This document shows positions 648-20,905 of a stretch of 20,988 bases of DNA, one piece after another. This DNA comes from a virus. Position numbers and translations under genes: made by a program. A model generated the notes under the pieces. It was not told where the DNA came from. It made no database searches and was given only the letters and a program-made list of their open reading frames with translations. Position 1 is the stretch's first letter; the number at the start of each line of letters is the position of its first letter. Location of the stretch: IMG/VR virus record IMGVR_UViG_3300035698_007967, positions 1-20,988 of that record; one strand, given 5' to 3'.

Positions 648-720
648 ACATCTCTCCTTTTTTAGTTTTTAATTTTGAATATTATATTAAAACTAATAAC
701 AAATCAAAAACTAAATAGAC
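648..720 (-). promoter_or_regulatory. Intergenic gap with AT-rich inverted repeat and possible -10 box
   Basis: This gap separates the glycosyltransferase stop from the pyruvyltransferase start. A perfect 10-bp inverted repeat, TTTAGTTTTT at 661-670 and AAAAACTAAA at 706-715, encloses a 35-base loop. On the minus strand the loop holds TATAAT, preceded at a short 15-base spacing by TTGATT. This could be a weak promoter framed by an operator-like repeat, or simply chance in AT-rich DNA. The stem has almost no G-C pairs, so it is unlikely to be a strong terminator. Confidence 0.25.
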
Positions 721-1830
721 TTATTTATTAAAAATCTTATAATATTCCCAAGTTTGGTCTGCTACTATAGGCCAAGAGGTTGCTTGTGTGTATTTTAAAC
801 AATTCTCAGATAATTGCTGTCTTAAATTACCATCATTTAATAATTTTCGTAACTGATCTGTCATACCTTGAACATCTCTAATCTCATATTTTAAGCTTCT
901 CGTTTCGTCTAAATCAGATAATATTCTTGCTCTTGAGGATATTGAAGGAAGGCCATAGCTCATTACAAGATGACTCATGCCGGAAATTGAATCTTGAGTG
1001 TCATAATAATTTTCTATTACTACATCAGAGGCACCAGCGTACCAATCAAGCTCTGATTCTTCTATATATTTTGGGATAATTCTAATCTTATCAAATGCGT
1101 CTATTGTAGCAACTCGCTTATAGAGCTTTAAACAATATTCTAAATTAGCAAAATGCTTTCCATGTACAATCGGAAAACCTACTATGATAAGTAATATATT
1201 GTTATCAAATTCTTCTTCTAATCTTATCACTGTTGAAACATTATCCATTGCCCCCTTAGTAGGAGTGATAAACCCCATAGTAAGGCAAACAATTTTATCT
1301 TGTGGAATTGATAAGTATTTTCTTGCTTCTTCTTTTGGTTTTTTAGTTCTTAAAACAGAAGCATGTGGGAGCACTACGGTCTTTCCCAAAACACCTAAAT
1401 CCCCTTTGAATTGTTCGTGATGAACTATAAATATGTCTACATAAGGAGCGCATCTTGTGATATTGATATTGCGACTTTTATCTAAAAATATTGTATGTAG
1501 TGTTATTAATATTCCGATATCATGAGATTTTAACTCTTTTAGCATTTCTAAAAAAGCTTGATGATTTTGAAACAGCCCAAATTCATGTTGGAAATGAACA
1601 CACTGGACACCACTTTTAATTATTTCCTGCGTAAGTTGCTTTAAATCGTCTACTCCTCTGTCCCAACATCTTATAATAGGATGTTTTAAACAACTTTTTG
1701 TGTCTGACATAACTCCCAAATTGTTTCCAAAAATTATCACTTCATCTTCTGGGAATTGTTCTACTAAATGTTCTGTGTATGTACTAATCCCGCATTGACA
1801 ATTCATCGTACTTACTATTCCTATTTTCAT
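721..1830 (-). CDS. Glycosyltransferase, GT-B fold, GT4-like
   Basis: The product is 369 residues, a normal length for a GT4-type glycosyltransferase. The N-terminal Rossmann half opens MKIGIVSTMNCQCGISTYTEHL, with the small-residue loop followed by GISTYTEHL that is common in GT4 enzymes. FQHEFGLF follows near residues 80-87, a segment recurrent in this group. The C-terminal nucleotide-sugar-binding half shows LTMGFITPTKG (183-193), then YIEESELDWYAGASDVVIE (255-273) and a Ser-Gly motif followed by YGLPSISSR (292-300). No signal peptide or membrane segment is visible, so it should act in the cytoplasm. The ribosome site AAAAAGGAGAATTAAA precedes the ATG. It lies between fibre-type genes and the pyruvyltransferase gene. 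Host surface glycan or a virion protein are both possible acceptors; the sugar donor cannot be told. Confidence 0.88.
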   Translation of the reverse strand: MKIGIVSTMNCQCGISTYTEHLVEQFPEDEVIIFGNNLGVMSDTKSCLKHPIIRCWDRGVDDLKQLTQEIIKSGVQCVHFQHEFGLFQNHQAFLEMLKELKSHDIGILITLHTIFLDKSRNINITRCAPYVDIFIVHHEQFKGDLGVLGKTVVLPHASVLRTKKPKEEARKYLSIPQDKIVCLTMGFITPTKGAMDNVSTVIRLEEEFDNNILLIIVGFPIVHGKHFANLEYCLKLYKRVATIDAFDKIRIIPKYIEESELDWYAGASDVVIENYYDTQDSISGMSHLVMSYGLPSISSRARILSDLDETRSLKYEIRDVQGMTDQLRKLLNDGNLRQQLSENCLKYTQATSWPIVADQTWEYYKIFNK

Positions 1831-2708: not shown

Positions 2709-4028
2709 TTAATACATTATAACAATTAATCCTTCACCTCCAGCGCCCCCATCCCCAGGACTATGACCATCACCAGTAGGCGATCCTGCCCCTCCACCGC
2801 CTCCACCGCCAGCCCCCCAACCCCCTGTTCCTGGAACTTGAGTTGCACCTGATGTTTGATGCCCATTAGAGCCACGATGGATTGCCGTAAAATGAGAAGC
2901 TTCGCCAGAGCCACCATTCCCCCCACTAAAAGGGGCAACCCCATTTTCCCCATAACATTCATAATAAGAATTTTGTTCCTCTAAATTATTTATATATGTT
3001 AAAGAATAAATAAAGCCCCCTAGAATACCAATTCCAGCGCCACCATTTGCGCCACCCCCATTACCGCCTCCACCCCCATTACCACCGCCTTGAAATAATC
3101 CACCAAAACTTGTTGTTCCGCCAAGTCCACCAGCAACACCAGCTGAACCAGGGATTACCCCAGCAGCGCCAGCAGCGCCACCGGCACCAATCGAATAAGC
3201 AATAGCCAATCCAGGAGTTACACTTATATTTCTCCAATAGAATTTATGTAGAAAAGCACCGCCTCCACCACCTCCATTACAACTATTCCCATCATTACCG
3301 CCTCCACCTCCACCGCCTCCACCGCCAATTAAACAAACTTTTATAGAATAAACTCTTGCTGGAACAACCCAATTCCCTGCTCCAGTAATAATACTAGTAA
3401 TTGCACCTCCAGTAGGAGTTACAACTAAAGAATCCACATATCCTTTTGTTGTTAAAGTTAAAGCGTTATCAGGCGCAACTGTTGCAATACCACGAACCTT
3501 GCCCGTAAAAGCTCTAGTCCCATCTATTAGCGAAAATGCTGATTCTAATAGACTTCCTAAATATTGAGAATTCAAATTGGTGTTTAAAACACCATTACTA
3601 ACAGGAATATTTCCAGTAGCATTGCCCGCTTGATACCCGTCATGTAAATCGGCATTTAAGTTGCCTACTAATGTTGTTGAAACTACAGTAAATGGAGGAG
3701 AGCCAATTGCCTGTTGAAATGCTGGCTGACATCCATTTTGAAATGTTACAGAACTACCACTTGCAAAGGTGGCCGCACTGCCAGCTTGCCAAGTTAATGT
3801 ACCATAAATACTATCACCATTAATTCTATCAGTAAACGTATAGCCTAATGTTGCTATGGCTTGTGTTAAGCTATCAGTATTACCAATAGTGTGAATAACA
3901 CTTGGGAATACCAATGTATTATAATCAGGTGCTGATGTTGCTTCATTTGGTGCACCTTGATATGCTAAATTCTGTGTAGTTAGTGGAGTAGTAAGTTGTC
4001 CACTCTCGCCATCATCCAATCTCAACAT
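2709..4028 (-). CDS. Tail fibre / adhesin with glycine-rich C-terminal domain
   Basis: The product is 439 residues. Residues about 110-165 contain VVSTTLVGNLNADLHDGYQAG and NLNSQYLGS, motifs typical of phage fibre shafts. The segment around 168-200 (DGTRAFTGKVRG, ALTLTTKGYVDSL) is another common fibre repeat. From about residue 217 (GNWVVPARVYSIKVCLIGG) it enters a region dominated by polyglycine tracts at 235-244, 252-257, 314-330 and 407-413, ending GGAGGEGLIVIMY. That layout matches glycine-rich receptor-binding domains such as T-even gp38-type adhesins, where polyglycine II helices pack and the loops between them bind the receptor. The non-glycine loops (for example 336-365 and 372-398) are the likely specificity regions. 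The ribosome site AAAGGAG precedes the ATG. The assignment as fibre/adhesin is strong; the receptor is unknown. Confidence 0.82.
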   Translation of the reverse strand: MLRLDDGESGQLTTPLTTQNLAYQGAPNEATSAPDYNTLVFPSVIHTIGNTDSLTQAIATLGYTFTDRINGDSIYGTLTWQAGSAATFASGSSVTFQNGCQPAFQQAIGSPPFTVVSTTLVGNLNADLHDGYQAGNATGNIPVSNGVLNTNLNSQYLGSLLESAFSLIDGTRAFTGKVRGIATVAPDNALTLTTKGYVDSLVVTPTGGAITSIITGAGNWVVPARVYSIKVCLIGGGGGGGGGGNDGNSCNGGGGGGAFLHKFYWRNISVTPGLAIAYSIGAGGAAGAAGVIPGSAGVAGGLGGTTSFGGLFQGGGNGGGGGNGGGANGGAGIGILGGFIYSLTYINNLEEQNSYYECYGENGVAPFSGGNGGSGEASHFTAIHRGSNGHQTSGATQVPGTGGWGAGGGGGGGAGSPTGDGHSPGDGGAGGEGLIVIMY

Positions 4029-4043
4029 ATTAATTCTCCTTTA

Positions 4044-5126
4044 TTATTCTATACCTACATAAGCAGTATTAGCAATTCGTCTTGCTATTATAAATCTATC
4101 TACTGCTGGAGTGTACGCCGCTGAAGCTACCACCGTAACAGGTAAATTGGCTGAAGCCGTTCTATCTACATCAACATAAGCAACGTCTCCAGCATTAACT
4201 AACACTATTGGAGACGACACTGCAAATTGAATTGCATTTATAAAAGCTGTCCCTGGAATTAAAATTGTAGCATCTGCTGTAAACGATAAACTTGTAGTCC
4301 CTAAATTCCAACCCCAAATTCCACCACCTGTTAAGCAAATATCTAAACTTGATAATGTGCTTGGTGTTGGTGCATACCAAACTGCTCCAAGCCCTGTAGC
4401 TGTTCCCCATTTCATTTCTTTTATCACTGAAGTAATAGCGTCAAAGGCTTCTTTTAAATTAACAAGTTGCTTATCTCCCCCTGTAAATATTGCAGGAGTA
4501 GCCCCTGTAATTCCAGGTTCTGTTCTACCAGAAGTCCAAGGATAAATATTGTCTAAATCTGGAGTAGCCCCACCCTCGCCTAATCTAAAAAGCAATTGCC
4601 TATTGTCTGTAAAACTTGTTATTGCTCCAGCAGCGGCAAGTGTAGTACAAAGATGAATAACATTCCCACCAACGGGAAATCCTCCATTATTGCTCTGTAA
4701 TGTAACAATCAATCTCTGCTCTGTATTAACTGCTTGGTTAAACTCCGCCCCAGCCCCACTCATTAAAGATGGGTCCCAAAAAGTTCTAACTTCGTTTTGC
4801 CCATCTACTGTATCTAATTCTAACCACCAATAAGTAAGAGCCCCATCAGTAGCCACACCTGATAATGCTGGTTCCGCTGAAAGAGCATAATATAAAGAAC
4901 CGTTATGTTGCCCATGAATTACTACCGAATTAGCCACTGCCACTTGAATTGTTAATGGACCAGTCTGACTAACCGTAAACCCTCTTATAATATAAGTATT
5001 TAATCCAGTGACCAAACCTTGTTGCATTAATTGAAAATCTTCTTCTGTAAAATCTTGAAGAGAATTAAAATCTGGGAGATCTAGCCTTTCTTGTGAATAT
5101 GCTAAAAGTTTTACTTGCTGTGACAT
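4044..5126 (-). CDS. Tail fibre or baseplate-fibre connector protein
   Basis: The product is 360 residues. The first 45 residues (AYSQERLDLPDFNSLQDFTEEDF, then NTYIIRGFTV) read like the N-terminal attachment part of phage baseplate or fibre proteins. A beta-rich middle follows (LTYWWLELDTVDGQNEVRTFWDP and GAEFNQAVNTEQRLIVTLQ). Then comes a helical linker (LVNLKEAFDAITSVIKEMKWG, about 225-245) and a second beta-rich half ending FIIARRIANTAYVGIE. It sits between the gpI-like baseplate gene and the glycine-rich fibre, exactly where a fibre connector is expected. The ATG has a good ribosome site, AAGGAGATATT, which lies inside the 3' end of the upstream GIY-YIG gene; the two frames overlap by 16 bases. 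The structural role is well supported by context. A precise family name is not claimed. Confidence 0.65.
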   Translation of the reverse strand: MSQQVKLLAYSQERLDLPDFNSLQDFTEEDFQLMQQGLVTGLNTYIIRGFTVSQTGPLTIQVAVANSVVIHGQHNGSLYYALSAEPALSGVATDGALTYWWLELDTVDGQNEVRTFWDPSLMSGAGAEFNQAVNTEQRLIVTLQSNNGGFPVGGNVIHLCTTLAAAGAITSFTDNRQLLFRLGEGGATPDLDNIYPWTSGRTEPGITGATPAIFTGGDKQLVNLKEAFDAITSVIKEMKWGTATGLGAVWYAPTPSTLSSLDICLTGGGIWGWNLGTTSLSFTADATILIPGTAFINAIQFAVSSPIVLVNAGDVAYVDVDRTASANLPVTVVASAAYTPAVDRFIIARRIANTAYVGIE

Positions 5127-5359
5127 AATATCTCCTTATCGACATTTTCTATTTCTTTTTTTCTTGCTATTGTATTATTCTCCGTTGTATCTATAATTTC
5201 TCTTGTAAAACTATCTATTCCATAACTCTTTATTGCATCTCTGATTCCTCTTCCACTACCATAATAATTACTACTTAAAAACAAATATGGTGCAATTTGA
5301 CGCTTGCCTACATATATTTTCCCACTAATTTTATTCGTTATTTTATAAATAACTCCCAT
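5111..5359 (-). CDS. GIY-YIG endonuclease, short and probably C-terminally truncated
   Basis: The product is 82 residues. The GIY-YIG core is clear: GVIYKITN at 2-9, KIYVGKR at 14-20, then YYGSGRGIRDAIKSYG at 32-47, typical of free-standing phage GIY-YIG proteins, and a KKEIE segment holding the expected acidic residue near 69. The usual continuation after that glutamate (helix, conserved Asn and a DNA-binding C-terminal domain) is missing. The last codons run into the ribosome site and start of the next gene, so the 3' end has probably been lost. It may be inactive or minimal. The ribosome site AAGGAGTT precedes the ATG. The family is firm; activity is doubtful. Confidence 0.8.
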   Translation of the reverse strand: MGVIYKITNKISGKIYVGKRQIAPYLFLSSNYYGSGRGIRDAIKSYGIDSFTREIIDTTENNTIARKKEIENVDKEILCHSK

Positions 5360-5433: not shown

Positions 5434-6690
5434 TTATTCATCAATCAAATACCACCTCACAATTATTCCTGCGGCCTTAAGAAGCAATATAAATTGTGCA
5501 ACTAATTCTTGCGCCACTTCTGTATCTGTAAAAAATATAGGATAATCATCTCCTGTAATTACTGGAACTACTGGGGTGTTTGTACAATAATGAACCTGAG
5601 ACCCAGGTGCATGTGTATATTGAAACATATGTGTTGCGTCTAATAACAACTGAGTGTTAGAAGGCCTTAATCGATATCTTACCACCTCTTGTGTTGATAA
5701 ACCAAAATCAAACACTACATATCCGCCACCTCCAGGGAATTGCGAACTATTTATTACATTTATCACCCCGTAAGTAATCCCTGCTGTAAGAATTTGATTC
5801 GTTGTTGTTTGAGTAGAACTTAAACCAACACTCGTACCACTCGGTACATCATAAAAAAATGAACCAGGCCAATATGGATTAGCACTATCTATTATTGGCC
5901 TACTATCTATTATCGTTGCATCTGGATGGAATCTATGCGACCATTTTAATGTGTCTAAGTTAAATATAATCTTTTTAGGTATTCTCACGACTAACTCGTT
6001 GGGGTTTAATTCATGTAAACTTACCTTTGTATCTTGATGTTTATCTGTATCGAACCCTAAAGCTACATTAGCTGTACCCCCTGTTATTTGAACCGAACCT
6101 GCTAATCCAAAAGTATTTGTACTTATTTTAACAGTAGTATCTCCGCTAATAGCATCAAAAAAAGTATAAGCTACTACATAATCTGGCAACCAAGCATTTA
6201 TTCTCGCTACTACCTCTGCCGCTGTTGCTGCTCCTGGAACTGCAAAATCTTCAGCTAAAAATGTCACCCCGATAATATTAGTTTCGTCCACTACTAATGT
6301 TAAATTTTCCCCACCAATAAGATTAAATGGCTCTCCCACACTTGTTGTAGTAGAATGTAAATATTCTGTAGTCCAAAGCAATTCCAAACATTTATAAATC
6401 GAATGTTTAACCTGTTTCGGCCAAAACGATAATACAGGAATAAGCTCCCTAAACTTAGCATCAATAAAATGAATTAATGTAGGTCTTTGTACATCTAAAT
6501 TACTTGCCAGATAATCCAAATAAATATTAACTGCTGTTTTTATAAATATTTGCTCTCTAGCATTATCTATTGAAACAGAAGCCGCATCGTCTTCTTGACC
6601 AATAGCCGTTAATAGCCCAAGCATAATAGGGTTGCTTGCTGGCTTATAAAAACTCGGTATAAATCTTTGAAGTCTTTCTAGTCTATTCAT
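5434..6690 (-). CDS. Baseplate wedge protein, P2 gpI-like, with inserted hook-IN-like module
   Basis: The product is 418 residues. The N-terminal 85 residues (RLERLQRFIPSFYKPAS, then IFIKTAVNIYLDYLASNLDVQRP) match the helical start of phage tail protein I family members: a Pro-containing lead, an A/G-x-x-LD segment and an Arg-Pro ending. Members of that family join the J protein to the tail fibres. Residues 119-213 form a module closely resembling one in the J protein (EPF at its start, VPGAATAAEVVARIN in the middle, GGTANVALGF at the end). Residues about 312-370 look like a further small barrel (FPGGGGYVVFDFG). The C-terminus (DTEVAQELVAQFILLLKAAGI) is helical again. The start overlaps the stop of the endonuclease gene as ATGA, and an AGGGG ribosome site lies inside that gene. 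The gpI-like call rests on the N-terminal pattern and gene order. Confidence 0.72.
   Translation of the reverse strand: MNRLERLQRFIPSFYKPASNPIMLGLLTAIGQEDDAASVSIDNAREQIFIKTAVNIYLDYLASNLDVQRPTLIHFIDAKFRELIPVLSFWPKQVKHSIYKCLELLWTTEYLHSTTTSVGEPFNLIGGENLTLVVDETNIIGVTFLAEDFAVPGAATAAEVVARINAWLPDYVVAYTFFDAISGDTTVKISTNTFGLAGSVQITGGTANVALGFDTDKHQDTKVSLHELNPNELVVRIPKKIIFNLDTLKWSHRFHPDATIIDSRPIIDSANPYWPGSFFYDVPSGTSVGLSSTQTTTNQILTAGITYGVINVINSSQFPGGGGYVVFDFGLSTQEVVRYRLRPSNTQLLLDATHMFQYTHAPGSQVHYCTNTPVVPVITGDDYPIFFTDTEVAQELVAQFILLLKAAGIIVRWYLIDE
6052..6336 (-). repeat. Hook-IN-like module shared with the J protein
   Basis: This encodes residues 119-213 of the gpI-like protein. It parallels residues 375-462 of the J protein along its whole length: both begin EPF, both contain VPGAATA(A/E)EVV followed by an Ile/Met-Asn helix end, and both finish with GG(T/D)ANVALGF. 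The layout resembles the flagellin hook IN motif of flagellar hook-associated proteins, but this is recognised by eye only. Confidence 0.7.
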
Positions 6691-7568
6691 AAAACAGCCC
6701 CTATATTTTTTAAATCTCGAAAAGATATAATTTGAAATTTTAAATTAGGATTACTTTTTCTTATATCTTCGAATTTTGTTTGACTATTATTTATTAACCA
6801 ATCATTTTTTACATCAATGTACACGTTTTCCTTTATTAAATAAAAATCAGGATAATATTTTCTTTTTCTATTATATTCATGGCTGAAATACTCAACACCA
6901 CTAGGATGACAAATAAAAGAAATATTATTAGAATCTAACCATTTTATATAAGCATATTCATAACTTCCTTGAACTTTATATTCTTTCCCCTTTTTATTTC
7001 TATACTTTTTCCATCTTATTCCTATTGGGTGTGTTTGGTTATAATTACAAAAACTATTTAAAGGATAACAATTTTCTTTAGACCTTAATTTTTTAATATG
7101 ACAATTTTCACACTTTTTAGCATAAACACTTTTTTCCCTCCCACAAACACATTTTTTCCCCTTTATATAGACTCCCCCCTTCCAATTACTATTTTTATTT
7201 TTAACTCTAGGATTCTTTTTTTTAGTTTCGCTTATATACTTATAAGAACATTTTCTGCAATGTTTTGCACTAAAACTTTTTTTTCCATCACAATCGGGAC
7301 ATATTAATTTTAATTTTGTAAGCCCACCTTGCCATGCTGGATTATTTTCTCCTTGATGCCCTTTAATACTTGAATGATTGTTTTTATTTAATCCTTTATT
7401 CCAAGGAATCCTACCTTTAGTAGACAAACTAATTTTTAAAGAAATTTCTTCTTGTTTACATTCTCTACAAAAAGGATGTTTTTGGGAATAAGATTCTTCT
7501 GCTGTTTTCCCATTTAACCTAATTTTACCACATTTTTTGCATATTACTATTGGCATAAAATTATCCAC
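6687..7568 (-). CDS. Homing-endonuclease-type protein: zinc ribbons plus PD-(D/E)XK nuclease domain
   Basis: The product is 293 residues and very basic. The N-terminal half has three cysteine clusters resembling zinc ribbons: C10/C13 with C34/C37, C90/C93 with C104/C107, and C140/C142 with C153/C156. Between them are WNKGL (56-60), NPAWQGG (76-82) and NSNWKGG (126-132), like the NUMOD-type DNA-binding motifs of homing endonucleases. The C-terminal domain carries SYEYAYIKWLDSN (E204), YYPDFYLI (D241) and VYIDVKND (D252, K254), a complete PD-(D/E)XK catalytic set. The frame opens at GTG 7568 inside the 3' end of the J gene, with GAGG about 12 bases upstream; an in-frame ATG four codons later has no better ribosome site. 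It ends in ATGA overlap with the gpI-like gene. It is free-standing; no intron boundaries are evident. Confidence 0.8.
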   Translation of the reverse strand: MDNFMPIVICKKCGKIRLNGKTAEESYSQKHPFCRECKQEEISLKISLSTKGRIPWNKGLNKNNHSSIKGHQGENNPAWQGGLTKLKLICPDCDGKKSFSAKHCRKCSYKYISETKKKNPRVKNKNSNWKGGVYIKGKKCVCGREKSVYAKKCENCHIKKLRSKENCYPLNSFCNYNQTHPIGIRWKKYRNKKGKEYKVQGSYEYAYIKWLDSNNISFICHPSGVEYFSHEYNRKRKYYPDFYLIKENVYIDVKNDWLINNSQTKFEDIRKSNPNLKFQIISFRDLKNIGAVL

Positions 7569-15799: not shown

Positions 15800-17350
15800 T
15801 TATGGTGCTTTCTTTACTGTTGTTAATCCAATTGAACCCTGATATCCTGCCATATCATAATAAAATTTTTCAGCACCATCTTTAATATACACACCTCTTG
15901 TCAAAGTTAAATGCTGTGTCCATAAATTCCCAAATGTCCAATTATCTGAATACCCCTCTATATAAAAACTTCTCTTTACACTTCCGGTATCATCATAATT
16001 AATCATAGGCCCCGACACCACATCTAACCTTTTACCAAGCCGAACATCTTTTCTTCCAGAAATAACAATAGTGCCACTCTGTAAATAAGGATTATCTTGA
16101 AACCAATGTTTTATAATCTTATTCCAAGACGTTAATAACTGATTATTTATCTGTCCACCGCTGGTTATCGTTAAATACGGTGTGGATAATTTATAAATAC
16201 TCAATCCATACCTTTTACATTCTGCTGCATTTATCCAAGGGAATTCAGGAGCGACCACTGTTGCTGAAATAGCTGAAGATGCCGGATCTTTATCTAAAAA
16301 CTCTGATGCCAGAAAGAACATTGTTCTTCTATCGTGTTCATTTACACCCACTGAGCTTGCTAAGATATCTTGTCCTCCAATTTGAACAACGTCTAAATCT
16401 AAAAAATATCCAATATTACTTAAAAGTGCATCAGAATAATTCTTAAAAGTAAAAGGAATCATCCTTAAATATATACTAGGTTTTTCGTCTTCATCTAATT
16501 CTACAAATAATTCGTTTATAGGGAAATTGCTATATTCTTTTAACATAGACCATAATGACCCCTGAATATCTAAATTCTTAATTAAACATCTGCCATCTAA
16601 CCCCTTTTGAATGTTTTTTAGATTTAAAATATCAAAAAACCTATTATCGGTTCCGCCATAACCACCAAATTTTTGTGCCAATTCGCTAGGCAAGAACCAT
16701 TGCTTCAATCCCTGTTGCCCTTCAAAACCCCCAAAAGCATCTATTTGCTTGCTTAAAAAAACTTGCAATAATGTCTTTATTGCCTCATCAGGAGATACAT
16801 CTAATAATGCTAAAATATTCTTTAAAACCACTTCATTAAAATCTGCTGTGCCTATCCAAGGGTTGATAAATATAAAATATTTATCCAATACTTTGCCAAA
16901 ATCTTGCCCACTAACTGTATACCTTACTGTTCTCGCTCCTGTCTCTGCTGAAATATCATCTGAAAAGTTAACAGAATCTACATTACCAAAACATCTTAAA
17001 TGATACTTATCTGTCTGCCCATTTGTTAAATAAATTAGAATCCAATCTCCTGGGGCAATCTCTGAAAACCAATTCTCTGTAGGCAAAAATGTCAATGTAA
17101 AATATCCAGAAGCGATATTATTTGCCTTTGTATAATTAAAAGCTATAACAGGGTTACTCTCAGAATTATGGTCATAAACAGTATGTTTAACTTGCATTAA
17201 CCCTTCTAAAAAATAATCCTTTTCTGGGTTTTGAACATTATAATGGAATATCTCAACCTTACATTTTGAACTATAAGATTTATATGTATTCTTTGGCATC
17301 TTCTGATGCTCAAACAATGGATTGTCTATTTTTATATCACCTAATGACAT
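15800..17350 (-). CDS. Baseplate hub protein, gp27/gpD-like
   Basis: The product is 516 residues. Residues about 75-160 (GYFTLTFLPTENWFSEIAPGDWILIYL, FGNVDSVNFSDD, ARTVRYTVSGQDFGKVL) match the first barrel of phage hub proteins, where a 'PGD' turn and a 'G-x-V/I' strand recur. The middle (170-320) is helical with aromatic-rich insertions (GLKQWFLPSELAQKFGGYGG), and IKNLDIQGSLWSMLKEYSNFPINELFVELDED marks the second barrel region. The C-terminal part (ITSGGQINNQLLTSWNKIIKHWFQ, RLGKRLDV, FYIEGYSDNW) fits the final hub barrel. The hub connects tail tube, tape measure and spike. The order tape measure, hub, spike supports the call. A TTGGAG ribosome site lies before the ATG, two bases downstream of the tape-measure stop region. 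Confidence 0.8.
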   Translation of the reverse strand: MSLGDIKIDNPLFEHQKMPKNTYKSYSSKCKVEIFHYNVQNPEKDYFLEGLMQVKHTVYDHNSESNPVIAFNYTKANNIASGYFTLTFLPTENWFSEIAPGDWILIYLTNGQTDKYHLRCFGNVDSVNFSDDISAETGARTVRYTVSGQDFGKVLDKYFIFINPWIGTADFNEVVLKNILALLDVSPDEAIKTLLQVFLSKQIDAFGGFEGQQGLKQWFLPSELAQKFGGYGGTDNRFFDILNLKNIQKGLDGRCLIKNLDIQGSLWSMLKEYSNFPINELFVELDEDEKPSIYLRMIPFTFKNYSDALLSNIGYFLDLDVVQIGGQDILASSVGVNEHDRRTMFFLASEFLDKDPASSAISATVVAPEFPWINAAECKRYGLSIYKLSTPYLTITSGGQINNQLLTSWNKIIKHWFQDNPYLQSGTIVISGRKDVRLGKRLDVVSGPMINYDDTGSVKRSFYIEGYSDNWTFGNLWTQHLTLTRGVYIKDGAEKFYYDMAGYQGSIGLTTVKKAP

Positions 17351-17352
17351 TT

Positions 17353-19512
17353 TTACTCCAAATATGAATCTAATTGATCTGGCCTAATTGTGCCCCCATT
17401 CCACATCGCGGGGTCTTTGCCAAAACCACTCCCTAAACTTAACCATAATCCTTGATATCTTGAAGGATTAACCAACCTTCCCCCTCTACTAACTTCTGTA
17501 TGTAAATGTGGCCCCGTACTAGGCCCTTCACTCCCTGAAGCCGCCCCACCACTAAGCCCTAACACTTGTTCAGGTGTAACTATATCCCCCTGTTTAACTG
17601 CAACTTTTGATAAATGCTTAAATGTTATATCAAAACCATAAGGGTCTTTTACTCCTACAGAATGTGGCCCTACACTTGAAACTCTACCCTGGAATGGTAC
17701 ACTAACAGGGCTACCGTACCCCATTTTTACATCCCACCCCGAATGAAAAGAACTAGCGCCTGCTGTTGGAGGAATTCTAGGTCCAAATTGAGAACTAAGC
17801 CCACTGCCTAACCCTAAAAATGTTCCAGCACCACCACTTTGCGCTCTTTCCATCCCATAAGCACCTCGCTTAAAAAAATTCTTTATTGCTCCAAAATAAC
17901 CAACATCCGCAATATCATCACCCACCCCTCCAGTTATTTGAGATAATTCTTTCTGAGCTTTTGTACCATATCTTTTTATTAAACCAGGAACTCCTAATGG
18001 GGTAAAATTAATTAATTTTACAAATGGCAAAACAAGCCCCTCTATTGTTAATAATGATTCTTTAATAGAAGTGATAGCTGGATAAAGTTCTCTTCCTAAT
18101 CTAACTTGATTCATCTCATTTAATGCTTTAACAACTGCTCCTTGTCCGGTTAAACTATCTTTAATTGCCGTTAAATTATCCTTCTCTCCTTCCATCAATT
18201 TTCCTAATTTATCCTTACTCTCTTCGTCTGTCATTTGGAATTGAGGATTCGTTAGATTCGAAATTAACCCTTCAGCTGCTATTGGACTTATCCCCAACTT
18301 TTTAGACCAAACACCAATCCCCTTGCCCCTTAATCCGCCCCCCATCTGTTGAGTTGATTGAGCAAAATTTCTTAATGTCCCCAATGCTCCGCCACCACCC
18401 TGATACGCCCCATACAACTGACTTAAATATTGAAAACCAGAAGTATTTGCCGCTGCTGATCCTGGAGCCGCCTGTATTAATTCACTTAAAGAACTTGGTG
18501 GGGTTAATCCAGAAGTTGTCATCATCATTAAATCCTCTGGAGTTACATTCATTCCACCTTGTTGTAAAGTCTGTTTCATTGACCTCAGCATTAACATTCC
18601 CATGCCACCTTGAGGATTTTGCAATATTTGATTAAACCCACGCACTGCATTAGCACTTACTTGTGGAGTAACCGCTCCACCTGTTCTAGTTAAAGTAGAC
18701 ATTAATGTTGATATTTGTGTGACTGAAGATCCCGCATATTTACCAACTGTTTCTTCCATTAAACTAGCAGTAGTTTGTAAATATTCTCCAATTCTACCTC
18801 TTTCTAGTCTTGTTGCTAATGCGTCTGCATAAACTTGTGCTTGTTGCTTAACTAAATTTTGCCCTCTTCCTCCGGCCTGAGTTCCAATTGCTGAAAATCT
18901 TGTTAGAACATCTGTACCAACTCCAGTCCCCCTACTCATTTCTTGTATATTTTGTAACAGTGCAGGGTTCATTTTACCTGTACCAGTTAATATGCCCTGC
19001 ATTGTTTGAGCTGTTTCCGTAGGGCCATAACCTAATGCTGCCCCCTTACCCATTGCTCCCCAATTTAATTTAGCCCCCATACCTTGCATTCTTAATATAT
19101 GAGGGGCCAACTGTTCGTAAGCACCATACCCCCCAAACACTCTCATTACTCCTGCTGCTGCTACGCCTGCTACGCCCGCGCCCCTTATCCCTATTTTAGA
19201 TAACGCACCTCTACCTGCCCCTGCCAATCCTGCTGCACCACCTACTCCGCCTACTCCGCCTGCCGCTCCTCCTATACCAGCCATCCCCCCACCCATAGGC
19301 CTACCATAAGCATCATATATTGTCGGCTTCTGCATCATCCGATTAACTTTATCTAATTCCTTGAAATAATTTCCCTTGATCATATCATCGTATTGTTTAG
19401 GGAAATCTAATCCAGATTTAAGAGGCTTTTTGAACTTTCTTGAAAATTGTTCATAAGCCCGTTCGGCTTGCTTAGTATCAGCTGTGATCTTTATTTCATG
19501 ACTATGTAGCAC
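17353..19512 (-). CDS. Tail tape-measure protein with C-terminal M23 peptidase
   Basis: The product is 719 residues. The N-terminus (HEIKITADTKQAERAYEQFSRKFKK) is typical of tape measures. A glycine/alanine-rich tract at about 73-130, long helical stretches and hydrophobic segments (for example 490-515) follow. Residues about 589-690 are an M23 metallopeptidase with all key residues visible: H590 and D594 in FHSGWD, H633 in FKHLS, and H669/H671 in GPHLHTE. It should set tail length and, once ejected, cut peptidoglycan cross-links. It opens with GTG at 19512, eleven bases inside the preceding gene, with GGGAG six bases upstream; no in-frame ATG lies nearby, so the GTG start is well supported. 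The length is short to medium for a contractile tail. Confidence 0.88.
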   Translation of the reverse strand: MLHSHEIKITADTKQAERAYEQFSRKFKKPLKSGLDFPKQYDDMIKGNYFKELDKVNRMMQKPTIYDAYGRPMGGGMAGIGGAAGGVGGVGGAAGLAGAGRGALSKIGIRGAGVAGVAAAGVMRVFGGYGAYEQLAPHILRMQGMGAKLNWGAMGKGAALGYGPTETAQTMQGILTGTGKMNPALLQNIQEMSRGTGVGTDVLTRFSAIGTQAGGRGQNLVKQQAQVYADALATRLERGRIGEYLQTTASLMEETVGKYAGSSVTQISTLMSTLTRTGGAVTPQVSANAVRGFNQILQNPQGGMGMLMLRSMKQTLQQGGMNVTPEDLMMMTTSGLTPPSSLSELIQAAPGSAAANTSGFQYLSQLYGAYQGGGGALGTLRNFAQSTQQMGGGLRGKGIGVWSKKLGISPIAAEGLISNLTNPQFQMTDEESKDKLGKLMEGEKDNLTAIKDSLTGQGAVVKALNEMNQVRLGRELYPAITSIKESLLTIEGLVLPFVKLINFTPLGVPGLIKRYGTKAQKELSQITGGVGDDIADVGYFGAIKNFFKRGAYGMERAQSGGAGTFLGLGSGLSSQFGPRIPPTAGASSFHSGWDVKMGYGSPVSVPFQGRVSSVGPHSVGVKDPYGFDITFKHLSKVAVKQGDIVTPEQVLGLSGGAASGSEGPSTGPHLHTEVSRGGRLVNPSRYQGLWLSLGSGFGKDPAMWNGGTIRPDQLDSYLE

Positions 19513-19879
19513 TACTATCTCCCTCTTTTAGTAACCCATTCATTTCATCAGCTGTTATATAATCATCACCCATTTCATCTTTCAGCCAGTCTTCATCACT
19601 CTCTTCTGTGTTTTCTATATATTCTTCTACTCTTGCCCTCTCTTTTTCTTTATCGTCTACAAAATATAAAACCTCAAAATACTCTAACAATAATTCTTCA
19701 AAAGTATACTCCAACAAAAGAGGGTCTTTATATGGCCTATTATATTTGAAACACCACCATCTTTTTAAATAATTTAACAAAGATTGTTCATCTTTAGGTG
19801 TTGCATCAACATTATCTAAAGCCATCTTTCGTATATCATTGATATAATTACTTTTCTGTTGTTTCTGTTTTTTTGTCAT
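19502..19879 (-). CDS. Probable second tail assembly chaperone (gpT/gp14-like position)
   Basis: The product is 125 residues if read from the ATG at 19879. It is strongly acidic overall with many Glu, Asp and aromatic residues (LLNYLKRWWCFKYNRPY, YTFEELLLEYFEVLYFVDD, then an acidic tail with EESDEDWLKDEMGDD). It sits between the first chaperone and the tape measure and overlaps the former by 32 bases, the classic layout of tail assembly chaperone pairs, whose second part is often made only as a frameshift fusion. No convincing ribosome site precedes its ATG (AAGAAAAACAAG only). It may therefore be expressed mainly by frameshift or by coupling. The function rests on position, not on a domain match. 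Confidence 0.62.
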   Translation of the reverse strand: MTKKQKQQKSNYINDIRKMALDNVDATPKDEQSLLNYLKRWWCFKYNRPYKDPLLLEYTFEELLLEYFEVLYFVDDKEKERARVEEYIENTEESDEDWLKDEMGDDYITADEMNGLLKEGDSSAT

Positions 19880-19895
19880 CTTGTTTTTCTTTTTT
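19848..19895 (-). promoter_or_regulatory. Candidate programmed-frameshift window in the chaperone overlap
   Basis: The first chaperone frame remains open to 19848, and the second frame is open from just after a TGA at 19895-19897. Inside this window are two A runs: A6 at 19890-19895 and A7 at 19868-19874. In the A7 run the first frame reads GAC AAA AAA ACA and the second reads ACA AAA AAA CAG. A lysine tRNA can re-pair perfectly after slipping back two bases or forward one base. A fused product would have roughly 245 residues. The shift direction differs from the common -1 type. Confidence 0.4.
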
Positions 19896-20249
19896 CACTT
19901 CTTCAGCAATATCGTTAAAAAACTTAGTTTCAAAATCCATAACATTATTATAAACTTCTACCACCACATTCAAATCATATAAATCTAACCCAAAATCACT
20001 TCCTTCCCACCACTTAGGGAAAGCTGAAATAGTGAACCTTAACTGAGATATCATATTATGAATAAATCCGGTTTCTTTTTCTATGTTAGATAATCCCCCA
20101 TCTAATCTTGCCTTAAATTTAGAAATTTCCGAAATTGTCCTTAAATTAGGCCGATTATAAGTGAATTCTCCACTAAATTTTTCTTTAGTTTGATCTCCAA
20201 CTACATCAATATAAAATGTATGCTGAAAATTAGGTAAATTCTTGTGCAT
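19848..20249 (-). CDS. Probable first tail assembly chaperone (gpG-like position)
   Basis: The product is 133 residues. Beta-rich residues 1-40 (HTFYIDVVGDQTKEKFSGEFTY) are followed by a helical body (LRTISEISKFKARLDGGL, GFIHNMISQLRFTISAFPKWWEG, LYDLNVVVEVYNNVMDFETKFF) and a Lys/Glu-rich tail encoded by A-rich codons. Size, position after the tail tube and before the tape measure, and overlap with the next small gene fit a tail assembly chaperone that coats the tape measure before tube assembly. The ribosome site AAAAGGAGA is strong, so this member of the pair should be made at a higher level than the second. No catalytic motif is visible. Confidence 0.65.
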   Translation of the reverse strand: MHKNLPNFQHTFYIDVVGDQTKEKFSGEFTYNRPNLRTISEISKFKARLDGGLSNIEKETGFIHNMISQLRFTISAFPKWWEGSDFGLDLYDLNVVVEVYNNVMDFETKFFNDIAEEVKKEKQDDKKTETTEK

Positions 20250-20425: not shown

Positions 20426-20905
20426 TTATATTATATTCTGTACACCAGCTTCATCATAAGCCAACAACCCTACAAAATCAAGTGTTTCACTAGCGATATC
20501 TCTTGCCGCTACTGAACCAGACCTTGTAGTCATTTTTACTTCTTCTAATACCATAATATCTTGCTTTGTTGATTTATCATACAACCGAGCGGATATTGTT
20601 CCTTGTGTTAGCATATTCTGTAATTTTGATTGCCACCCTAAAGATACTGGCGAACCTGTGCCTGGTTTAGATTGATTCTTAGGAACTCTAAACCTAGTCA
20701 CACTAAAAGTTACTGTATAATCTGTTTCAGCATATTCTACTGGAGCTAATCTATCTATTGTATGAATAGGAACTAGCCCATGATTTATTGTGTAATTTAT
20801 TGCTGAGGCATATGCTACAGGGCTATTCCCTAAATAAAAAGTAACTTTTGCACCAGTTAACACAGAAGTAGGGTTAACACCTTCATCTACTCTATTTCCA
20901 GACAT
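20426..20905 (-). CDS. Tail tube protein
   Basis: The product is 159 residues, a usual size for the tail tube of a contractile phage. The sequence is beta-rich throughout: GAKVTFYLGNSPVAYASAINYTINHGLVPIHTI, then EYAETDYTVTFSVTRFRVP, then TISARLYDKSTKQDIMVLEEVKMTTRSGSVAARDIASETLDFVGLLAYDEAG. The ordering of hairpins, the ARLYD strand and the final SETLDFVG strand match the tube proteins of myoviruses related to the XkdM type, by eye. These proteins form hexameric rings stacked inside the sheath. A very strong ribosome site (AAAGGAGGATTAAT) precedes the ATG, and a terminator follows the gene, both fitting high output. It lies upstream of the chaperone pair and tape measure, the expected place. 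Confidence 0.8.
   Translation of the reverse strand: MSGNRVDEGVNPTSVLTGAKVTFYLGNSPVAYASAINYTINHGLVPIHTIDRLAPVEYAETDYTVTFSVTRFRVPKNQSKPGTGSPVSLGWQSKLQNMLTQGTISARLYDKSTKQDIMVLEEVKMTTRSGSVAARDIASETLDFVGLLAYDEAGVQNII

Follow-up and report, generated by a model that had tools for sequence, protein, structure and literature searches.

How is the second of two overlapping tail genes translated when its start codon lies inside the first gene and is preceded by little that resembles a ribosome binding site? The question is raised by the window analysed here, a complete virus record of 20,988 bases that carries a contractile-tail module on its minus strand. Two genes, termed A and B, sit there between the tail tube and tape measure genes (Table 1). 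Overlapping starts are commonplace in this phage: judged by coordinates, 6 of the 17 pairs of neighbours among 18 scored genes overlap, the A/B pair included.

Table 1. Features of the A/B locus and its neighbours in the window.
Feature	Coordinates	Strand	Remarks
Tail tube protein	20426..20905	-	Upstream neighbour of A; phrog_985 and alignment to annotated tail tube records
Gene A, tail assembly chaperone	19848..20249	-	133 aa, ATG, strong SD, AAAAGGAGAATAATT
Gene B, second chaperone	19502..19879	-	125 aa, conserved stretch near LKRWWCFKYNRPYKDPLLLEYTFEELLLEY
Tape measure protein, M23 peptidase domain	17353..19512	-	Downstream of B; 11-nt overlap with B; SD -8.5
A/B overlap, B frame open within A	19848..19894	-	47 nt; any fusing shift must enter the B frame here
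A6 run, GTG AAA AAA GAA	19890..19895	-	In phase with lysine codons of A; +1 re-pairs AAA to AAG
A7 run, GAC AAA AAA ACA	19868..19874	-	In phase with lysine codons of A; slip site of the original prediction
B start codon ATG	19877..19879	-	No earlier start codon in the open B frame
Last sense codon of A (AAG) and stop TAA	19848..19853	-	-2 re-pairing of AAG to AAA possible, stop in the A site

The original prediction, made from the sequence alone, took the two genes for a tail-chaperone pair, and this is borne out by the matches that A gives to phrog_25000 (E 8.4e-7) and phrog_1038 (E 7.6e-5), both of them families of tail assembly chaperones. Gene A also aligns with a profile of the Herelleviridae chaperone A over 78 columns (hhalign, probability 92.9%, E 3.6e-7). 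Gene B has no match in Pfam and no significant one in PHROG (best E 0.16), and profile comparison did not detect homology with B of the Herelleviridae (probability 0.4%); among six proteins tried by hmmsearch, the best was B of Myxococcus phage Mx1, a weak match of 8.0 bits. The B protein is conserved in seven other distinct loci, with 14 invariant columns in an alignment of eight rows. A and B are best explained as the tail-assembly chaperone pair of a distant SPO1-like contractile-tailed phage, in which A would play a role like that of lambda G and B, lying between A and the tape measure gene, one like that of T.

The coordinates confirm that B is read in the +1 (equivalently -2) frame relative to A, as originally stated, and that the overlap holds an A6 and an A7 run. 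The B frame is closed upstream by a TGA at 19895-19897. The -1 relation that is canonical for such pairs is absent, and a -1 shift was discarded for the window since the -1 frame stays open only 30 nt beyond the stop of A and is not the frame of B. On the A7 run the lysine tRNA can re-pair exactly after a +1 as well as a -2 shift, and slippage is thus possible there, as had been proposed. The predicted fusion would count about 248-249 residues by hand from the frames, which keeps the order of size first given (about 245) and corrects the figure slightly. The overlap shows no notable RNA structure, with a z of -0.53 across 121 nt and of -1.13 in its downstream part.

The ATG of B lies 32 nt before the end of A, whose TAA follows 29 nt downstream. 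Its pairing with the anti-Shine-Dalgarno (SD) sequence, -3.9 kcal/mol, is the weakest among the 18 scored genes, the other 17 ranging from -5.4 to -11.6 (A, -8.7) and the other five overlapping starts reaching -6.0 or better; the earlier remark that B lacks a proper ribosome site therefore holds. Such a weak site fits either low-level coupled initiation or frameshifting. We favour the former, and consider it somewhat more probable than all else together that its own ATG (19879) serves to produce B separately, at a low rate. Ribosomes could end A at its TAA and then re-initiate at the ATG of B, or initiate there directly but weakly; in that case the end of A, rich in lysine and glutamate, would have no role beyond being permissive. 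We infer from the evidence assembled below that translation of B starts at this ATG and that A and B are not joined into one protein.

Relatives with both genes were sought by scans of viral contigs and of a phage collection. Three of them, L002, L003 and L004, share the +1 relation; L004 is identical to L003 over the locus, and with the window there are three distinct +1 members. All three have an ATG for B in the overlap, 32, 26 and 20 nt before the end of A in the window, L002 and L003, respectively, and each has an AAA codon whose next base is A or G and after which the B frame stays open. The site itself is not shared. The overlap of L002 has an A6G run upstream of the ATG and is without A7, while L003 and L004 have an A7G run at another place than the window's A7. 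The SD pairing of B is weak in L003 (-3.8) and moderate in L002 (-5.8), where a GAGG of its own precedes the ATG. Compared with shuffled sequences, the overlaps of L002 and L003 fold somewhat more stably (z -1.67 and -1.70), which counts against separate initiation.

How much such features tell was gauged by keeping the amino acids of A and redrawing its last 25 codons from each phage's own codon usage (20,000 draws). The C-terminal tail of A is rich in lysine and glutamate, and AAA accounts for 171 of the 256 lysine codons in 14 window genes. An in-phase A7 usable for a shift appeared in 44.9%, 18.4% and 46.5% of the recodings of the window, L002 and L003, respectively, AAAAAA in 69.7%, 72.0% and 61.2%, a lysine codon capable of a +1 slip in 98.9%, 97.1% and 100%, and an ATG in the B frame in 86.5%, 93.7% and 82.4%. 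The coding strand of the window has 23 runs of at least A6 and seven of at least A7, and longer ones (A8, A8 and A9) stand elsewhere in it. Since both are frequent in synonymous recodings, neither the A run nor the B-frame ATG discriminates between mechanisms. We consequently rejected the A7 run, absent from that place in the relatives and expected by chance in 44.9% of recodings, as evidence for a selected slip site. Nor do we take the ATG of B to prove separate initiation, since chance alone provides one in 82-94% of the recoded tails of the three members. The single A7 run, on which the original prediction had relied and whose conservation it had proposed to check, carries little weight.

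The A run could also act at the level of the message, RNA polymerase slipping on A7 and deleting one A in some transcripts, thereby joining A to B. The run is there, yet seven A's are short for slippage by bacterial RNA polymerase, the overlap of L002 offers only A6, and the window has longer runs outside the locus. We regard this as highly improbable.

In a tree of A, the window, L002, L003 and L012 group together (94/94) and L038 comes next (87/89), although no branch met the program's strict mark and the order within the four is left open. Among the lineages found, only the window's clade has the +1 relation. In L012, B is in the -1 frame with an ATGA stop-start overlap and is open for 10 nt within A; no re-pairing within this shared open frame conserves both the amino acid and the first two bases. 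In L038, a small extra ORF lies between A and B, and 260 nt separate A from the open B frame. That ORF (666-929, minus strand) encodes 87 residues, and its stretch LTGARAELWIDGK resembles by eye the start of a tail tube protein. In Mx1, whose B matches the B profile weakly, the two genes are 2 nt apart with TAAGGAG before a GTG, and their 7 nt of shared frame offer no such re-pairing either. Judged by sequence, a cognate slip would thus seem incapable of yielding a fusion in L012, L038 and Mx1. The SD pairing of B is poor in L012 and L038 (-0.9 each) and stronger in Mx1 (-8.6). L020 and L014, both with B in the -1 frame, also score better: the former (-6.9) has AGGAG-TCTAA-ATG before B, and the latter (-7.7) an 82-nt overlap in which B has an ATG. 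For SD scoring, A of L014 was taken from 2600, one codon before its ATG, which leaves the frame unaffected. The original prediction had named, as findings that would speak against it, related phages without the A run or with a strong ribosome site before B. Both kinds were found in part, the A7 run being absent from relatives and better sites standing before B in L020, L014 and Mx1; the gene inserted in L038 may be counted with them.

L013 points the other way. Its B is in the -1 frame and has no ATG, GTG or TTG ahead of its conserved part, so that this relative seems to need a fusion, which argues against separate initiation in the window. In the region at 2881-2929 and downstream, a C-CCC-CCT heptamer ends 12 nt ahead of where A ends, or 9 nt ahead of the stop codon. 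Some such heptamer is expected by chance in 18% of cases when any XXXYYY heptamer is counted, an overlapping A-AAC-CCC being met first. The downstream structure has a z of -2.64. A -1 frameshift is likely in L013, given the missing start codon and the structure, whereas the heptamer alone could be due to chance.

The nearest described systems are found in the Herelleviridae. Chaperone A of phage Eldridge matches 573 phage records. Twelve records were picked by hand (loci L026-L037): ten from 60 listed matches (K, A511, Maine, Lb338-1, LfeInf, Romulus, EFGrNG, Bromius, SIOphi and Goe17), with Eldridge and SPO1 added by accession. Maine and K have identical letters in the overlap shown. Troll (L023) was left out as the chaperone pair was not identified in it. 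B stands in the +1 frame relative to A in all 12 records read. In each of them the open overlap contains a TTT in the frame of A with a C after it, no more than 48 nt ahead of the stop of A (48 in SPO1). The phenylalanine tRNA could thus shift from UUU to UUC, and this UUU-C may be the slip site. Half of the records have some start codon for B in the overlap and the other half have none, and such a codon consequently fails to separate the types. The SPO1 record (gp10.2/gp11.1) is annotated with +1 ribosomal slippage, and Maine and LfeInf carry a joined CDS. Lb338-1 and Goe17 have B as a separate overlapping CDS, an annotation that favours neither mechanism. In Eldridge, K and A511, B is annotated from a downstream ATG rather than as a joined CDS.

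The window resembles SPO1 and the Herelleviridae in gene order (tail tube, A, B, then tape measure or tail lysin), in an A that is homologous by profile and in a B in the +1 frame. It differs in that their overlaps have UUU-C whereas its own has lysine runs and an ATG, and in that its B has no homology to theirs detectable by profile. With lambda gpG/gpGT it shares two overlapping chaperone genes of the same role upstream of the tape measure gene, as described in part of a review (PMC5009743), but the frame relation is -1 in lambda. The ATG of B within A near its stop recalls ATGA coupling, of which L012 shows the classic form, although the ATG of the window lies farther, 32 nt, from where A ends and is preceded by little SD.

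Could the clade then use a programmed +1 frameshift such as is annotated for SPO1? A few ribosomes would move one base ahead at a lysine AAA, either in A6G (19890-19895) or in A7 (19868-19874), where the lysine tRNA would pair anew with AAG or AAA; reading on into B, they would yield a fusion of some 248 residues. The +1 relation common to the three distinct clade members and the 12 Herelleviridae records is in keeping with this, as are the AAA codons followed by A or G with B open beyond and the weak SD of B. The relevant lines of the Moonbeam announcement call its +1 tail chaperone frameshift unusual (PMC4299906), and a review describes, in the passages used here, chaperone frameshifting as widespread in tailed phages, of -1, -2 or +1 type depending on the phage (PMC5009743). 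An excerpt of the PRFect preprint counts a joined frameshift gene in 2,476 of 3,679 SEA-PHAGES genomes (PMC10274946), and the consulted part of a Listeria paper holds no statement on frameshifting of its chaperone (PMC12282133). The type is not new: the original prediction had placed it among the rarer ones, yet phages like SPO1 are already known to have this arrangement, and among known kin the +1 relation is not rare.

Against a +1 shift stand several observations. Lysine codons capable of the slip are expected in 97-100% of recodings, and the UUU-C of the Herelleviridae is missing from the overlaps of the window, L002 and L003. Known +1 sites usually have a slow codon or a stop after the slip codon, whereas the codon after the A runs is an ordinary GAA or ACA. 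No structure accompanies the window overlap, and L012, L038 and Mx1 appear to manage without a fusion. We retain frameshifting as an explanation because of the SPO1 precedent, the weakness of the SD of B next to other overlapping starts and the apparent need of L013 for a fusion, but hold the +1 form to be a tentative alternative at best.

A programmed -2 frameshift would lead to the same frame, either at the A7 or A6 run or at the last sense codon of A (GAA AAG UAA). At that codon re-pairing is possible in 3/3 clade members, from AAG to AAA in the window and L002 and from ACT to ACA in L003. A -2 shift is known for phage Mu, here from a review passage (PMC5009743), with which the frame relation of the window is compatible. 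The last-codon re-pairing was noticed post hoc, however, and is not improbable given the amino acids: Glu-Lys needs only GAA, and Asp-Thr needs GAC, which makes up 16 of the 93 Asp codons in four L003 genes. No stimulator was seen. We consider a -2 shift in the clade unlikely. More doubtful still is the narrower conjecture that the clade shifts by -2 at the last sense codon of A with the stop in the A site (in L003, GAC ACU UAA), while its SPO1-type kin use +1 and other relatives -1 or no fusion. It would imply that the direction of the shift changed several times while the chaperone pair was kept.

Separate initiation of B remains our preferred explanation. L012 and L038, the nearest other lineages in the tree of A (with modest support), have a separate B; the B start of L012 is even poorer in SD than that of the window; and the window offers no shared or structured slip site. 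An ATG occurs in the overlap of all +1 members, overlapping starts abound in this phage, and some T4-like phages have, in the excerpt of the PRFect preprint, a short and a fused gene in place of frameshifting (PMC10274946). Weighing against it are the SD of B, the poorest of the 18 genes scored and below that of the five other overlapping starts, and the frame relation shared with the Herelleviridae, in which a +1 fusion is annotated.

With this locus the tail-chaperone pairs gain an environmental lineage. The spread of A-B linkage among the relatives, from +1 overlap through -1 overlap that has a slippery heptamer and lacks a start codon, ATGA and separate genes to an inserted gene, is a more useful result than the A7 run, and the family may serve as a test case for when a fused chaperone is truly needed in tail-length control.

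With A as the query, and likewise with the tail protein at 15803-17350, scans of viral contigs gave no matches. In the phage collection A matched only Mx1, A of L002 matched Mx1 and Salmonella phage SPFM8 (E 0.04), and B of the window and of L014 matched nothing. With the B profile one B was found in 8/9 records, the ninth ending at A, and one A was found in 9/9. L041, nearly identical to L012 (tube 99.4%, A 100%), was left out of the counts as its contig ends at A. In the genome contig L022 the DNA pattern of B matched by chance within a different gene, one that by eye looks acyltransferase-like, and L039, L040, L043 and L044, which matched the tail-tube DNA pattern, were dropped since they gave no tblastn match to the probes.

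Other genes of these modules deserve mention. Upstream of A, L014 has two successive genes (1384-1926 and 1946-2530) that both match tail tube proteins by tblastn, and L020 has two successive ORFs (2734-3378 and 3388-3969) that are alike in kind by eye. Among the baseplate genes of the window, and overlapping their neighbours, lie a GIY-YIG (SegE-like) endonuclease ORF (5111-5359) and an ORF that by eye resembles a zinc-finger homing endonuclease, with a weak DUF7487 match (6687-7568). The tail module is closed by a polysaccharide pyruvyl transferase gene (PF04230) within 3-1830, where a glycosyltransferase-like gene scoring under Pfam's cut-off is also found.
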